From Actinocatenispora sera (lineage in GTDB: Bacteria > Actinomycetota > Actinomycetes > Mycobacteriales > Micromonosporaceae): a stretch of DNA of 64,000 nucleotides. Position 1 is the stretch's first letter. Every line of letters starts with the position of its first letter. A model generated the notes under the pieces. The model was given only the letters and a program-made list of their open reading frames with translations. It ran no database searches and had not been told where the DNA came from. The position numbers and the translations under genes are program-made. Location of the stretch: assembly GCF_018324685.1 (NCBI RefSeq), contig NZ_AP023354.1, positions 1,860,001 to 1,924,000 on the forward strand, written 5' to 3'. Positions 17,689 to 23,340 of the stretch are shown piece by piece.

Positions 17689-17773
17689 AAAGATCGGCAC
17701 CGAAGCTCCATCCCGGTTGCGACAGATCCGCGCGGCCACCCCCGCCGCGTGGCCGACTCCCCGAGGAGGATCT

Positions 17774-20221
17774 GTGCACAGACCGATCAGCAAGGCGCTC
17801 TGCGCCGCCGCGGTGGGCGTGCTGTTCGCCGGCACCGCCGCGGCCGCCGGAGACGCCGCACCCGCAGCAAGACAGGTGGCGCCGAGCGCCGCGCTGTCCA
17901 CCAACTGGTACGCGGCCGCGCCGTACCTGATGCCGGCCGACAACAACCCGCCCGACCCGGCCGAGATCATGGACGCCACCGGGCAGAAGGCCTTCCAGCT
18001 CGCGTTCATCCTCTCCGACGGCGGCTGCAACCCGGCCTGGGACGGCACGACGCCCATCGGCTCGGCGCCGGCCATCACCACGGCGATCGACACCATCCGG
18101 GGCAAGGGCGGCGACGTGTCGGTCTCGGTCGGCGGCTACAACGGCACCAAGCTCGGCCAGGCCTGTTCGGACGTCGCTTCCACCGCGGCGGCGTACCAGA
18201 AGGTGATCGACGCGTACGGCCTGCACGCGATCGACTTCGACCTGGAGGAGCCGGAGTACGAGAACACCGCGGCGATCGCCCGCGAGCTCGGTGCCGCGAA
18301 GCAGCTCCAGTCGAACAACCCCGGCCTGTACGTGTCGGTCACGATGCCGGGCACCACCGCGGGCACCGGCTGGTTCGGCACCCAGCTGCTCGACCAGGCA
18401 AAGTCGATCGGCTTCACCCCGTCCAACTTCTCCATCATGCCGTTCGACAACGGCTTCGGCGGCGGCGGCGCGAGCCAGACCGCGGCGTTGGAGGCGTTCC
18501 ACGGGCTGCTGGAGAGCCACCTCGGCTGGGCCTCCGACTTCGCCTACCAGCACGAGGGCGTGTCGAGCATGAACGGCCGGACCGACGCCGCCGAGTACTT
18601 CCGGCAGGCCGACTTCCAGACCGTGCTGAACTACGCGCTGTCGCACCAGCTCGGCCGGTACACGTACTGGTCGGCCAACCGGGACCGGGAGTGCGACCCG
18701 CCGGAGAACCAGAAGCTGTCCGGCGAGTGCTCCAGCGTGACGCAGCAGAAGTGGGAGTTCACCACCTACACCACCGCGTTCGCGAACCAGACCACGGTGG
18801 TCGACCCGCCGACCACCCCGCCCGGCGGTGGCGGTACCGACCCGGGCACCTGCGCCGCGGCGGCCTGGGACGCCTCCGCGGTGTACACCGCCGGCGACGA
18901 GGTGAGCTACGACGGCCACACCTGGACCGCCAAGTGGTGGACGCAGGGTGAGACGCCCGGCGCCGCCGAGTGGGGCCCCTGGCAGGACGACGGTGCCTGC
19001 GGCGGTGGCGGCGGTGGCGGCACGGCGCCGGCGGCGCCGACCGGGCTGACCGCGATCGCGACCGGGGCGACCACCGTGGCCCTGGCGTGGACCGCGCCGG
19101 CCGGCACGGTCGACAGCTACAACATCTACCAGGACGGTGGGAAGGTCTCCTCGGCGAGCGGTACGAGCGCCACCGTTTCCGGCCTGACCGCGCAGACCAC
19201 GTACCAGTTCCAGGTCACCGCGGTGAACGCGGCCGGGGAGAGTCCGAAGACCGACGCGGTGTCGGTCACCACCCCGACCGGGGGCGGCGGTAGCGGCGAC
19301 GGCGACACGTCCGGCTACATCAACGGATCGGGTGCCGGTGACAAGAACATCATCTACTTCGACCAGTGGTCGATCTACCAGAACGCCTACTACCTCAAGG
19401 ATCTGGACCGGTATGCGGACGACATCGACGTCATCAACTACGACTTCGCGAACATCGACCCGAACAGCAAGACCTGCTTCGAGGCGACGAAGGCGTCGAC
19501 CCCGGACCCGGGCGGCGAGTCCGACCCGAACGCCGGTGACGGTGCCGGCGACGCGTTCGCCGACTACCAGAAGTCGTTCGGCGCGGACATCAGCGTCGAC
19601 GGCACGGCCGACACCTACAACCAGCCGATCGTCGGAAACTTCAACCAGCTGAAGGAGCTGAAGGCCCGGCACCCCAACCTGAAGGTCGTCATGTCCATCG
19701 GCGGCTGGACGTACTCCAAGTACTTCTCCGACGCGGCGGCGACCGCGGCGTCCCGGCAGAAGTTCGTCAGCTCCTGCATCGACATGTTCATCAAGGGCAA
19801 CATTCCGGAAGCCGGCGGGTACGGCGGGCCGGGCACCGCGGCCGGGATCTTCGACGGCTTCGACATCGACTGGGAGTACCCGGCGTCGGACGCCGGCCAC
19901 GTCGGCAACCACCACAGCCCGGACGACACCGCGAACTACACCGCGCTGCTCGCCGAGTTCCGGTCCCAGCTGGATGCGTTGGGCGGCCAGCACCACCTGC
20001 TCACCGCGGCGCTGCCGGGTGGCCAGGACAAGATCGACAAGGTCCAGACCGACAAGGTCGGCCAGTACCTGGACTACGGCAACGTGATGACCTACGACAT
20101 GCACGGTGCCTGGGACGCGACCGGCCCGACCAACCTGCAGGACCCGCTGTTCCCGTCCGCCGACGACCCGTCACGCAGGTACCGGGCGGCACCCAGCAGT
20201 ACGACTCGGACACGGTGCTGA
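17774..20221 (+). CDS. Chitinase with two GH18 domains, upstream reading frame (ends at a frameshift)
   Basis: Secreted chitin-degrading enzyme. The GTG at 17774 follows GAGGAGGA and opens a signal peptide (KALCAAAVGVLFAGTAAAAG). First GH18 domain about 35-345 with the DxDxE motif in AIDFDLEEPE (near 154). Then a CBM5/12 chitin-binding module about 359-410, rich in Trp (TWTAKWWTQGETPG). Then a fibronectin III domain about 417-502. Then a second GH18 domain from about 515 with VVMSIGGWTYSKYF and GFDIDWEYP. After NVMTYDMHGAWDATGP and SADDPS the frame runs into 15-20 unrelated residues and stops. The missing end of the barrel is encoded in the next frame (to 20805). Restoring one base near 20171 would give about 1010 aa. 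Confidence 0.88.
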   Translation: MHRPISKALCAAAVGVLFAGTAAAAGDAAPAARQVAPSAALSTNWYAAAPYLMPADNNPPDPAEIMDATGQKAFQLAFILSDGGCNPAWDGTTPIGSAPAITTAIDTIRGKGGDVSVSVGGYNGTKLGQACSDVASTAAAYQKVIDAYGLHAIDFDLEEPEYENTAAIARELGAAKQLQSNNPGLYVSVTMPGTTAGTGWFGTQLLDQAKSIGFTPSNFSIMPFDNGFGGGGASQTAALEAFHGLLESHLGWASDFAYQHEGVSSMNGRTDAAEYFRQADFQTVLNYALSHQLGRYTYWSANRDRECDPPENQKLSGECSSVTQQKWEFTTYTTAFANQTTVVDPPTTPPGGGGTDPGTCAAAAWDASAVYTAGDEVSYDGHTWTAKWWTQGETPGAAEWGPWQDDGACGGGGGGGTAPAAPTGLTAIATGATTVALAWTAPAGTVDSYNIYQDGGKVSSASGTSATVSGLTAQTTYQFQVTAVNAAGESPKTDAVSVTTPTGGGGSGDGDTSGYINGSGAGDKNIIYFDQWSIYQNAYYLKDLDRYADDIDVINYDFANIDPNSKTCFEATKASTPDPGGESDPNAGDGAGDAFADYQKSFGADISVDGTADTYNQPIVGNFNQLKELKARHPNLKVVMSIGGWTYSKYFSDAAATAASRQKFVSSCIDMFIKGNIPEAGGYGGPGTAAGIFDGFDIDWEYPASDAGHVGNHHSPDDTANYTALLAEFRSQLDALGGQHHLLTAALPGGQDKIDKVQTDKVGQYLDYGNVMTYDMHGAWDATGPTNLQDPLFPSADDPSRRYRAAPSSTTRTRC

Positions 20222-20805
20222 AGGCCTACACGGTCGGTGATTCGATGTACTCCATTCCCGGCGGTTTCCCGGCCGACAAGCTCACGATCGGGATCCCGAT
20301 GTACTACCGGGGCTGGACCGGGGTGCCGGCCGGCGCCAACCACGGCGAGTACGGCTCCGCCACCGGGCCCAGCGCGCCGCATCCGCTGTCCGGCAACGTA
20401 CCCGGCGTGGCGCTGCAGAAGGAGATCTCCGGCACCGCGTACTACGACCCGGTGCGGATGGCCGGCTGGTACTACGACGGCACGACGTTCTACGCCGGCA
20501 GCACACCTCAGTCCATCGTGGACCACGTGGCGTACGCGAAGTGCAACGGCCTGGGCGGCATGATGATCTTCTCGGCGTACGACGAGACGGCGGCGAGCCA
20601 GCCGCTGCTGGAGAAGATCCTGGCCGAGTCCGGCAAGAGCAAGCCCGCCGACTGCTCGAAGTACGCCACCGACACCTGGGGCGTGTTCGGGCCGCCGTCG
20701 AGTTCGGCCACCACCAACTCGATCCAGGCATCGCCGGCGCACGGTGACGGTTCCGGCGCCGCGCCGTACGCGCCGCCGGCCGCGATCACCTCGCGCAAGC
20801 ACTGA
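20215..20805 (+). CDS. C-terminal part of the second GH18 chitinase domain, displaced frame
   Basis: Continues the chitinase in another frame. The match begins just before this open frame (TQVPGGTQQYDSDTVLKAYT, from about 20171), then KLTIGIPMYYRGWTGVP and NGLGGMMIFSAYDE, the last strands of a GH18 barrel. About 60 further residues of Ser/Ala-rich tail follow. It has no ribosome site and no signal peptide, so it is not an independent gene. It is either the lost end of a broken chitinase or the result of a one-base sequence error. Confidence 0.75.
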   Translation: MLKAYTVGDSMYSIPGGFPADKLTIGIPMYYRGWTGVPAGANHGEYGSATGPSAPHPLSGNVPGVALQKEISGTAYYDPVRMAGWYYDGTTFYAGSTPQSIVDHVAYAKCNGLGGMMIFSAYDETAASQPLLEKILAESGKSKPADCSKYATDTWGVFGPPSSSATTNSIQASPAHGDGSGAAPYAPPAAITSRKH

Positions 20806-20947: not shown

Positions 20948-21064
20948 ACGAAATTCGCGATCTGCGGATGGTCGAGGCGCAGCGTTCCCTGTCACATAGG
21001 CTGGGACGACGTTCGGGTATGGCGCCGCCGCACCGGGGGCGCGAAACCGAGCAAGGAGCACGAC

Positions 21065-21388
21065 ATGCGATACCTGATGACCACCGGTCCGTCGGACACC
21101 GCGCCGGACAAGAAGCTGTTCGCCGAAATGGGCGAGTTCGTCCGGGAACTGACCGCTTCCGGGGTGCTGCTCGCCACCGGCGGGCTGGAGCCGGGCGGTA
21201 CCCGGATCACGTCGAACGGCGCCGAGATCACCGTCACCGACGGCCCGTTCACCGAGGCCAAGGAGGCCATCGCCAGCTTCGCGCTGGTCGAGGTGCGCTC
21301 CAAGGAGGAGGCCATCGAGCTCGGCCGCCGGTTCCGCCGGATCGTGGGCGACGGCCAGAGCACGATCCAGCAGGTCTTCTCGGCATGA
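21065..21388 (+). CDS. YCII-related (DGPF-domain) protein
   Basis: 107-aa protein of the YCII/DGPF family with the name-giving motif VTDGPFTEAKE. GCAAGGAG lies upstream of the ATG. Such genes almost always precede an ECF sigma factor of group ECF42, as here (next gene 17 bp downstream). The role is unknown: it may be a sensor, a modulator of the sigma factor, or an enzyme. Confidence 0.92.
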   Translation: MRYLMTTGPSDTAPDKKLFAEMGEFVRELTASGVLLATGGLEPGGTRITSNGAEITVTDGPFTEAKEAIASFALVEVRSKEEAIELGRRFRRIVGDGQSTIQQVFSA

Positions 21389-21405: not shown

Positions 21406-23340
21406 ATGAGCGACGTCGAGGCCGCACTCGACGCGGTGTGGAAGCTGGAGTCGGCGCGGATCATCGCCGCGCTGACCCGGCTGGTGCACGACGTCGGGCT
21501 GGCCGAGGAACTGGCGCAGGACGCGCTCGTCGCCGCGCTCGAACGGTGGCGGGCCGACGGCGTACCCGACTCCCCGGCGGCCTGGCTGACCACGGTGGCG
21601 AAACGGCGGGCCGTCGACCACCTGCGCCGCTCCGCCCGTGCCGACCGGGCCACCGAACGCATCGGGTACCAGCAGCAGGCCGCGGCCGCCGAGGCCGAGC
21701 CGGACGACGTGCTGCGGCTGATGCTGCTCACCTGCCACCCGGTGCTGGCCCCGCCGTACCGGGTGGCGTTGACGTTGCGGCTGGTCGGCGGGCTGACCGT
21801 GGCCGAGATCGGGCGCGCGTTCCTCGTCGACGAACCCACCGTGGTACGCCGGATCGCGGCGGCCCGGCGGACCCTCGCCGAGGCGGGGGCGCGGTTCGCG
21901 CTGCCGGCCGCGGACGAGCTGGCCGACCGGATCGCCGCCGTCCTCGACGTGCTCTACCTGATCTTCAACGAGGGGTACACGGCCAGCGCCGGCGACGACC
22001 TGATCCGGCCCGGGCTCTGCCTGGAGGCGCTGCGGCTGGCCCGGCTGCTCGCCGCACTCGCACCGGGCACCGCCGAGGTGCACGGGCTGGTCGCGCTGCT
22101 GGAGATCCAGGCGTCCCGGTCCGCGGCGCGCACCGCCGCCGACGGCACCCCGGTACCGCTGGCCGAGCAGGACCGCGGCCGGTGGGATCCGCTGCTGATC
22201 CGGCGCGGGTTCGCCGCGCTGCTGCGCGCCCGGGACACCGGCGAGCCGCCCGGCCGGTACGTGCTGCAGGCCGCCATCGCCGCCTGCCACGCCCGGGCCC
22301 GGCGGGCGGAGGACACCGACTGGGCGGAGATCACCGCGCTGTACGACGCGCTGGTACGGCTGCTGCCGACGCCGGTGGTACGGCTCAACCGGGCCGTCGC
22401 TGTCGGCCTGGCGCGCGGACCGGCGGCCGGCCTCGCCGCGGTCGACGAGCTGGCCGGCGACCCGGCCCTGCGCGACTACCACCTGCTCCCCGGGGTACGG
22501 GCCGACCTGCTCGCCCGGCTCGACCGGCCCGCCGAGGCGCGCCGCGAGTACGACCGGGCGGCGGCGCTGGCCCGCACGGCCGCGGAACGGCGGTTCCTGC
22601 GCCGCCGGGCCGCCGAGCTGCCCGCCGCGCCGTCGACCGGCCGCACCCTGGACACCGCCGTGGCCGAGTTCCTCGGCAGCGACCGGCACCGCGCCGGCAC
22701 GCTCCGCTCGTACCGGCAGACGCTGCGCCGGATCGTCCTCGACCTCGGCCCGAACACCCCGCTGGCCGAGATCACCGCCGACTCCGTGGCCCGGGTCTTC
22801 GCCGTCGCCTGGGGCACCGCCGCGGCCCGTACCTGGAACCGGCACCGGGCGGCGGTCCGGTCGTTCGGCGCCTGGGTCGGCCGCAGCGGCCTCGACGTCG
22901 GGCTGGACCGCCGGGCCGAGCCGGCGGAGCGTACCGAGCCGCTGCCGGCGGCCGACCTCGCCGCGCTCTGCGCCCGGCCCGACGTCGCGCTCCGGGAGCG
23001 CGCGCTGTGGCTGCTGCTGGCCGAGTCCGGCGCCCCGGTCGGCACGGTGCTCGGTCTCGACGTCGACGACCTCGACCTGCCGAACCGCCGCGCCCGGGGC
23101 GACCGCGGCTGGCTGACCTGGGGTACCGGCTCCGCGGCGGTGCTGCCCGAGCTGGTTGCCGGCCGGCGACGCGGGCCGCTGTTTCGCAGCGACCGCCGGC
23201 CCGCTCCGGCCCGCCGGCCGGCGGACGCCGACCTGTGCCCGGACACCGGCCGGCGGCGGCTGTCCTACGAACGCGCCGAGTACCTGTTCAAGCGCGCCAG
23301 CGGCGGCCGCACCCTGCGCCAGCTGCGTACCCGCGGCTGA
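21406..23340 (+). CDS. ECF42-type sigma factor fused to a degenerate tyrosine-recombinase domain
   Basis: 644 aa in one uninterrupted frame. Residues 1 to about 405 are a complete ECF42 sigma factor: region 2 (AEELAQDALVAALERW, AAWLTTVAKRRAVDHLRR), region 4 (LTVAEIGRAFLVDEPTVVRR) and the long helical C-terminal extension of the group (LIFNEGYTASAGDDLIRPGL, LNRAVAVGLARGPAAGL). ECF42 proteins normally end near here. From about 412 a second module resembles a site-specific integrase: a core-binding domain (TLRSYRQTLRRIVLDLGPNT, WNRHRAAVRSFGAWV), then catalytic-domain landmarks (LLLAESGAPVGTVLGLDVDD, YLFKRASGGRTLRQLRTRG). The first catalytic Arg and the His of HxxR are replaced, and the protein stops before the Tyr region. 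The module is therefore probably DNA-binding only. It follows the DGPF gene. Confidence 0.85.
   Translation: MSDVEAALDAVWKLESARIIAALTRLVHDVGLAEELAQDALVAALERWRADGVPDSPAAWLTTVAKRRAVDHLRRSARADRATERIGYQQQAAAAEAEPDDVLRLMLLTCHPVLAPPYRVALTLRLVGGLTVAEIGRAFLVDEPTVVRRIAAARRTLAEAGARFALPAADELADRIAAVLDVLYLIFNEGYTASAGDDLIRPGLCLEALRLARLLAALAPGTAEVHGLVALLEIQASRSAARTAADGTPVPLAEQDRGRWDPLLIRRGFAALLRARDTGEPPGRYVLQAAIAACHARARRAEDTDWAEITALYDALVRLLPTPVVRLNRAVAVGLARGPAAGLAAVDELAGDPALRDYHLLPGVRADLLARLDRPAEARREYDRAAALARTAAERRFLRRRAAELPAAPSTGRTLDTAVAEFLGSDRHRAGTLRSYRQTLRRIVLDLGPNTPLAEITADSVARVFAVAWGTAAARTWNRHRAAVRSFGAWVGRSGLDVGLDRRAEPAERTEPLPAADLAALCARPDVALRERALWLLLAESGAPVGTVLGLDVDDLDLPNRRARGDRGWLTWGTGSAAVLPELVAGRRRGPLFRSDRRPAPARRPADADLCPDTGRRRLSYERAEYLFKRASGGRTLRQLRTRG

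Follow-up and report, generated by a model that had tools for sequence, protein, structure and literature searches.

Sigma factors read the -35 element of their promoters by region 4. One gene in a 64,000-nt stretch of the Actinocatenispora sera genome (hereafter, the window) raises the question of why an ECF42 sigma factor with a region 4 of its own should carry, in the same reading frame, the remains of a tyrosine recombinase, and what such a tail could contribute to promoter recognition. The fusion itself, the catalytic decay of the recombinase, the conservation and position of a short DNA site, and the relaxation of sigma4 are all evident at the level of sequence. The reading that we consider likely is that the recombinase tail replaces sigma4 in -35 recognition, in cis.

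The fusion gene and the decay of its recombinase domain

The gene occupies positions 21406-23340 (+ strand) as a single open reading frame of 644 amino acids without an internal stop, and Pfam assigns domains to both of its parts. The sigma part comprises region 2 (residues 18-78, 21457-21639, +; Sigma70_r2), region 4 (residues 105-157, 21718-21876, +; Sigma70_r4_2) and the ECF42 C-terminal part (residues 175-405, 21928-22620, +), which opens with DUF6596 (residues 175-275, E 2e-34) and appears as a helical-repeat (TPR-like) structure from Pfam, the structural model and the presence of TPR proteins among its Foldseek matches. NCBIfam adds a sigma70-ECF match above cut-off. The first gene of the operon (21065-21388, +; 107 amino acids) encodes a YCII/DGPF-family protein (Pfam YCII, E 6e-11; motif VTDGPFTE) and is separated by 17 nt from the sigma ATG; 75 of the 76 loci with a full-length fusion have a homologue immediately 5' of the fusion gene. 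The name DGPF for this small-protein gene, used in the earlier sequence-only reading and here, is taken from its motif. The window therefore contains the features of ECF42 membership, namely ECF-type sigma2 and sigma4, a DUF6596/TPR-type extension and an adjoining DGPF/YCII gene, and the Pfam and NCBIfam domains agree with a preceding sequence-only reading of this DNA, in which residues 1-405 were taken for an intact ECF42 sigma factor following a DGPF-protein gene. Further 5' of the operon, a chitinase-like region (by reading) is laid out as two overlapping open reading frames in different frames (17717-20221 and 20215-20805, +), which suggests a frameshift in the gene or in the assembly.

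The tail of integrase layout that the same reading had placed in frame behind the sigma factor is likewise found. Its core-binding (SAM-like) domain spans residues 424-491 (22675-22878, +) and matches Phage_int_SAM_1 with an E of 1e-6 in the whole protein and 5e-7 with the tail alone, and a recombinase fold is predicted within residues 406-644. No Phage_integrase match was found in the fusion protein up to E 1 (Pfam), as expected of a decayed catalytic domain. In that domain (residues 492-644, 22879-23337, +), alignments reproduce the residue-level observations made earlier (Pro544 in place of the box I Arg, RxxR in place of HxxR, and the end of the chain at that point) and reveal a shortened Lys hairpin, so that the window protein lacks R1, K, the box II His, H/W and Y of the R-K-H-R-H/W-Y set of active recombinases.

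AlphaFold2 modeling gave a mean pLDDT of 94.4 for the tail alone (alignment of 95 sequences including stand-alone integrases, which helped this prediction) and 88.5 for the full-length protein (alignment of the 77 fused proteins only). The structure search after residue 405, which had been named beforehand as a refuting test, returned a recombinase fold: the top Foldseek matches of the tail are the tyrosine recombinases XerA (E 1e-6; TM 0.39-0.43 and rmsd about 14-15, the domains being set differently) and the DNA-bound integrases of Tn1549 and lambda (TM 0.63-0.69 by query length). Recombinase-fold phage regulators match as well, including SroF (E 1.6e-4) and MrpR/YopR (E 0.01-0.05). The predicted fold comprises the core-binding domain and a catalytic domain that is present only up to box II.

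Loss of the catalytic residues is general among the fusions. Each of the seven positions is retained in 22/22 stand-alone integrases, as compared with 3/88 fused tails for the box I Arg, 1/88 for Glu, 3/88 for Lys, 10/88 for the box II His, 45/88 for the second Arg, 2/88 for H/W and 1/88 for Tyr, and no more than 20 residues are left from box II onward in 83 of the 88 (two pairs among which are apparently the same genomes entered twice; L117, taken in the wrong frame, and L120, the L075 locus, were left out before counting). The fused proteins of L093 and L094 reach the tyrosine region, and that of L094 retains Arg, His, Arg, His and Tyr. These two loci (L093:5983-6861, Microbispora siamensis; L094:5992-6870, a Sphaerisporangium MAG) represent transitional fusions, which still yield Pfam Phage_integrase matches.

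Recurrence, ancestry and stand-alone relatives

Several genera carry the fusion among 61 genomes (the window's own and relatives), and a tail match at E <= 1e-10 occurs in 84 of 354 same-family genomes, a figure that includes stand-alone integrases. When named genomes were scanned, 253 encoding stretches came up, of which the best 80 were kept. Among these best 80 of 253 actinobacterial loci, an ECF42 sequence is in frame with the tail in 78 and the fusion is full-length in 76; L053, L075 and L050, which are split or rearranged when compared with the others, and L098, a stand-alone integrase, were left out of the full-length set. Fusion-bearing genera include Streptomyces, Kitasatospora, Nonomuraea, Streptosporangium, Microtetraspora, Amycolatopsis, Saccharopolyspora and Actinoplanes, with an additional fusion on the Streptomyces plasmid NZ_CP108089. 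The expectation that relatives would carry the same fusion, rather than one assembly alone, is thus borne out, and an assembly or frameshift artefact as its source is rejected, since full-length fusions recur across many loci. Identity to the window's tail is 81% in a congener and 50-63% in the other fused tails aligned. The tail of a record named Rhodococcus rhodnii (L064) falls inside the Kibdelosporangium tails, with a very short branch, a placement compatible with recent transfer, contamination or a mislabelled record.

In the tail tree (98 rows, without L050 and 11 near-duplicates), 81 fused and 17 stand-alone tails are parted by one change (support 84), with L093 and L094 placed at the junction. 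In the sigma tree (88 rows, without 13 near-duplicates, and with a long-branch warning among the unfused), one change parts 64 fused from 24 unfused sigma domains (support 93). Both trees are quick searches and the split between fused and other sequences is starred in neither; each needs one event, and by these trees an ECF42 sigma factor gained a tyrosine recombinase at its C-terminus once. The dN/dS of the tail ranges from 0.11 to 0.60, below 1 in 16/16 pairs and higher than in the sigma part in 13/16, values which are rough (NG86, high GC, some sequences used in two pairs). By this measure, the tail is under purifying selection.

The stand-alone relatives have the complete R, E, K, H, R, H/W, Y set in all 22 genome loci examined, and the stand-alones L010, L011, L012 and L098 are 38-49% identical to the tail. 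A phage integrase as the stand-alone relative was considered and rejected: a set of 50,697 phage records contains no match at E 1e-10, whereas 122 plasmid records match at E 1e-20 (at least one of them, H11, being itself a fusion). The integrase of plasmid pFAJ2600 (NC_003846; an integrase by Pfam) is 43% identical to that of L098, and we take its gene to serve multimer resolution. A literature search on pFAJ2600 or PmrA gave no report of this plasmid among the matches listed.

A 13-bp arm at the operon promoter and the drift of sigma4

The proposed binding site of the recombinase tail is a 13-bp arm, TTCCCTGTCACAT, present as an exact consensus copy at the -35 position of the window operon (20985-20997, +). 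With up to one mismatch, this site occurs once in the 7.04-Mb genome, namely at the promoter of the fusion operon. Across 76 fused operons including the window (250 nt 5' of the DGPF gene, up to 3 mismatches), the forward arm is found in 71, the reverse arm in 64 and both in 59, as compared with a forward arm in a mean of 0.7 of 76 after mononucleotide shuffling. A facing reverse arm with up to one mismatch accompanies 57 of the 71 forward arms (distances 17-29 searched), at start distances of 21 (42 operons), 22 (10), 23 (3), 25 (1) and 29 (1), i.e., mostly in a 13-8-13 arrangement. The window operon has a single forward arm, and the reverse arm was not found in its promoter. The five fused operons without a forward match (L034, L063, L067 and L096 from Nonomuraea; L069 from Amycolatopsis) have the reverse arm only, near the DGPF start, and the arm-type promoter is therefore seemingly on the side of a divergent DUF998 gene alone.

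The arm accompanies the fusion rather than ECF42 in general. Among 24 unfused ECF42 operons, a forward arm occurs in one (L145, at -152) and a reverse arm in none, vs. a forward arm in 6/6 fused operons scanned alongside (for L128 and L149, two of the 24 in which no DGPF gene was found, 699 nt 5' of the sigma gene were scanned); the inverted pair as an ordinary ECF42 promoter is rejected on this ground. All 20 fused genomes chosen have an arm site no more than 3 kb from the fusion gene. Only 6 sites were found away from the fusion gene in the 19 fused genomes other than G009, and the arm therefore serves mainly its own operon. The 20 chosen fusion-free genomes have matches in 16 (20 in total, one of them exact), and the idea that the arm marks a wide regulon was dropped, distant sites in the 19 fused genomes being no commoner than in fusion-free ones. 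Symmetric substitutions in the two arms number 7 vs. 2.4 expected, a weak signal. Titles among the listed literature matches to the arm motif string were unrelated.

The excluded genome, G009 (L006/L187, C29:98000-104500, and L182-L195), has 10 exact copies of the arm on 9 contigs. Its fusion is reduced: sigma2 is missing, and what is left is sigma4, a portion of DUF6596 and the tail, preceded by an open reading frame that is methyltransferase-like by reading. Possibly, this reduced fusion regulates a scattered regulon by binding DNA, without acting as a sigma factor.

Similar arms are found at the stand-alone integrases, which have no sigma part, and this identifies the arm as a recombinase-type site. 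Inverted 13-7-13 arms (up to 2 mismatches, within 300 nt 5' of the gene) occur at 19 of 27 stand-alone integrases vs. 1% in shuffles, a count that takes 7-bp spacers only (a separate dyad search took spacers of 6-9) and is to be read with the provisos that many of the 27 are close kin, that L115 and L119 among the 19 look like GC-rich coincidences, and that in 21 genome stand-alones the gene start was set at 312 codons before the stop. In the nearest stand-alone group, the arms resemble the fused arm (GTGACA-x-AGAA), and L098, the nearest stand-alone of all and outside the 27, has ATGTGACAGGGAA-N7-TTCCCTGTCACGG about 1.6 kb 5' of its integrase gene. Spacers between the arms of fused operons vary from 8 to 16 bp vs. 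7 bp in the stand-alone sites, as expected if strand exchange would no longer constrain them. The 13-7-13 dyads of L196 (pFAJ2600), L198, L200, L201 and the same-family L101-L118 are mostly located some 110 to 205 nt 5' of the gene; the arm sequence of stand-alone integrases differs by subfamily, which makes them a ready set for the study of recombinase-site coevolution. The actinobacterial stand-alone recombinases, including plasmid ones such as that of pFAJ2600, are homologous to the tail of the fusion and, in 19 of 27, likewise have inverted 13-bp arms 5' of the gene; they differ in lacking a sigma part and, in the 22 genome loci, in possessing a full catalytic set. The sequence-only reading had proposed that an integrase fold came to serve as a tail that binds DNA or protein; the conserved putative site at the operon promoter narrows this proposal to DNA binding. 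A role of the tail as a DNA-binding module is strongly supported by these comparisons, and we infer that it binds the TTCCCTGTCACAT arm.

The arrangement of promoter elements points to what this binding could replace. In unfused ECF42 operons, TGTCGA-N15-17-TTCGAC with up to 2 mismatches is present in 15/24 (the TGTCGA -35 and TTCGAC -10 consensus having been derived from these same 24) vs. 1.4% in shuffled fused regions. In the window, the best fit to this promoter has 4 mismatches; a putative -10, GACGAC, lies 20 nt after the arm start (21005-21010, +) with 2 mismatches to TTCGAC. Of the 71 arm-bearing operons, 52 (not including the window) have a predicted TTCGAC-type -10, with up to one mismatch, at a distance of 19 or 20 nt measured from the start of the arm. 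In the main fused clade, the -10 is kept and the TGTCGA -35 is gone, because of which the fusion is filed as a variant of ECF42 and not as a typical member.

The protein side has changed in parallel. Thr145 and Arg152 of the sigma4 recognition helix are each present in 24/24 unfused proteins, as compared with 16 and 9, respectively, of the 77 fused ones (the window has Thr145 and Ala152; 21838-21861, +), and position 152 takes 11 different residues among the latter, while Arg149 is kept in 75/77. In a scan of 70 derived vs. 31 reference sequences, positions 152 and 145 rank first and second of 393 scorable sigma positions for gained variability. Residue 152 aligns without gaps, albeit weakly (E 0.83), with the FRAR arginine of RpoE (chain 2h27), R176, which contacts -35 bases.

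These two sets of changes go together. Among the 76 fused operons, the 9 whose proteins retain Arg152 have a canonical promoter (up to 2 mismatches) in 7 and an arm at -35 in none, while the 67 without Arg152 have an arm at -35 in 63, starting 18-21 nt before the predicted -10, and a canonical promoter in 3 (L038, L073 and L088, where an arm is present too); L054, L063, L069 and L096 have neither Arg152 nor an arm at -35 (4/67). Seven of the Arg152 keepers form one clade in the sigma tree (L061, L072, L077, L093, L094, L099 and L100; support 99); the other two, L034 and L067, retain Arg152 without a canonical promoter. In the seven-member sister clade, the canonical promoter is present in 7/7 (the best match of L061 lies at -230, with an equally good one nearer by reading), and the arms are further upstream, two in direct orientation or one (L072). 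Fisher p-values of 1.8e-6 and 5e-9 for the association of Arg152 with the promoter type overstate independence, because the hand-off maps essentially to a single evolutionary branch; the sigma4 and promoter changes therefore amount to one strong coincidence and not to many independent ones.

The reverse arm also has a partner. A divergent DUF998 gene (identified from the Pfam match of the L021 product, E 2e-35) is present in 45/57 operons with a reverse arm vs. 5/13 without (p 0.007), an association only, and a strict tie between the two is rejected. A mirror -10 to the left of the reverse arm is found with up to 2 mismatches in 44/45 operons with DUF998 vs. 7/12 without (p 0.001), with up to one mismatch in 32/45 vs. 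4/12 (p 0.02), and as an exact match in 4/45 vs. 2/12 (p 0.6). The combination of an inverted arm pair, a mirror -10 and, often, a divergent gene for a DUF998 membrane protein suggests a promoter that works in both directions, each with its own arm. No DUF998 gene was found at the window operon.

Promoter recognition by the tail: proposal, alternatives and implications

According to the proposed scenario, an ECF42 sigma factor would have acquired at its C-terminus, in one event, a tyrosine recombinase from a plasmid-associated family; the ability to recombine would then have been lost with the catalytic residues and the C-terminal part of the active site, and binding to the 13-bp core half-site retained. 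The sister clade presumably preserves the older state, with direct-repeat arms (single in L072) upstream of a TGTCGA-N15-TTCGAC promoter read by sigma4. In the main clade, including the window, the arm would have taken the place of the -35, 18-21 nt before the -10, as the -35-reading residues of sigma4 drifted. The arm at -35, the disappearance of the canonical -35 and the drift of sigma4 jointly argue that the tail would provide upstream promoter recognition in cis, with sigma2 going on reading the -10. Signal input would come via the DGPF protein and the TPR part. The living series would thus run from an intact integrase with a 13-7-13 site, through a fusion with arms upstream of a normal promoter, to an arm at -35 with a decayed sigma4. 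We infer that arm binding activates transcription and that sigma4 no longer reads DNA; sigma4 may nevertheless continue to recognize the initial bases of the arm, and its changes could have other causes, since in known ECF42 the extension is reported to contact sigma4 helices (PMC9023288).

The main rival, which we regard as possible but rather unlikely, is an autorepressor tail: a dead recombinase sitting on the arms would block RNA polymerase, with the sigma part acting elsewhere or in balance. It draws on the recombinase-fold phage regulators SroF and MrpR/YopR among the Foldseek matches, MrpR being described in PMC10516654 as a repressor without recombinase function, on the overlap of the arm with the promoter core, and on the scarcity of distant sites in fused genomes; a clamp-shaped protein at about -32 to -20 could clash with RNA polymerase and, to that extent, fits repression better. 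Yet autorepression needs a working promoter, and the canonical one is missing in 64/67 operons without Arg152, in the very proteins whose sigma4 recognition helix is relaxed; nor does occlusion require the distance of 19 or 20 nt between arm and -10 seen in 52 of 71. A less probable alternative leaves the reading to a sigma4 of changed specificity, for which the arm or its first bases would be the new -35, the tail a module for regulation or protein-protein contact, and the paired inverted arms a coincidental inheritance. The position of the arm and the other recognition-helix residues that are kept, such as Arg149, suit this possibility, but positions 145 and 152 vary instead of being fixed to new residues, the opposite of what a new specificity would entail, and integrases without any sigma part have arms of a similar kind. 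That the tail has no function and is what remains of an integrase inserted behind a sigma gene, or that the fusion arose in assembly, appears highly improbable: the missing catalytic features and the cut at box II might be expected of a remnant, but a full-length fusion in 76 of the best 80 of 253 loci across many genera, purifying selection in 16/16 pairs, a conserved DNA site and a confidently folded model largely exclude it. Replacement of sigma4 by the tail in -35 recognition stays our preferred reading.

Known systems offer partial precedents for this preferred reading. Characterized ECF42 members (Sven_0747, Sven_4377 and Sven_7131 of Streptomyces venezuelae; ECF-10 of Pseudomonas putida) share sigma2, sigma4, a TPR-rich extension and a neighboring small-protein gene with the fusion, and control through protein interaction via the TPR extension has been proposed for them (PMC8999054); a second paper reports that activity needs contact between the extension and sigma4 (PMC9023288). 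The fusion differs by an extra tail of ~240 residues and, in the main clade, by the 13-bp arm in place of TGTCGA and by relaxed positions 145 and 152. In reuse of the fold, the nearest analogues would be MrpR/YopR of the Bacillus prophage SPbeta (MrpR: PMC10516654) and, judging from PDB titles, SroF of phage phi3T, in which the tyrosine-recombinase fold likewise serves a sequence-specific DNA-binding regulator. The fusion has the same recombinase fold and loss of catalysis, with a DNA site deduced from conservation; those proteins, however, are separate phage repressors, whereas here the fold belongs to a sigma factor, in which it probably recognizes a core promoter element. In mechanism, the closest parallel appears to be T4 sigma appropriation, where the MotA box "replaces the promoter -35 element" (PMC6755090). 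There, a module that binds DNA at about -30 stands in for the -35 reading of sigma4, and the -10 is kept. At the sequence level, replacement of the -35 by the putative site of another module with the -10 kept is found in 63/67 operons. MotA and AsiA act on sigma70 as phage proteins in their own right, whereas here the reader is fused to sigma and recombinase-derived.

The sequence-only reading knew of no described family with this architecture, and no description of a fusion between an ECF sigma factor and an integrase was found in the openly available literature searched, an entry in the ECF re-classification being conceivable; the words "integrase" and "recombinase" have no occurrences in the main text of part of the ECF42 literature and of DUF6596 papers. 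To our knowledge, the promoter-reading mode proposed here is known from no other sigma factor. It is fairly likely, in our judgment, that this is the first sigma family in which -35 reading has passed from sigma4 to a dead, cis-fused tyrosine recombinase reading its old half-site, with the steps surviving in relatives. If true, the -35 reader would have been swapped for a recombinase domain inside one polypeptide, a change for which T4 appropriation needs separate phage proteins, and, as intermediate states survive, the origin of a new promoter specificity would be traceable stepwise. It would also yield a compact sigma/promoter pair (the 13-bp arm plus the -10), for which a test set is at once apparent, and illustrate a route by which mobile-element recombinases may become chromosomal regulators, while the likely two-way promoter shared by the DUF998 and DGPF genes would provide an entry point to the cell biology of this family.
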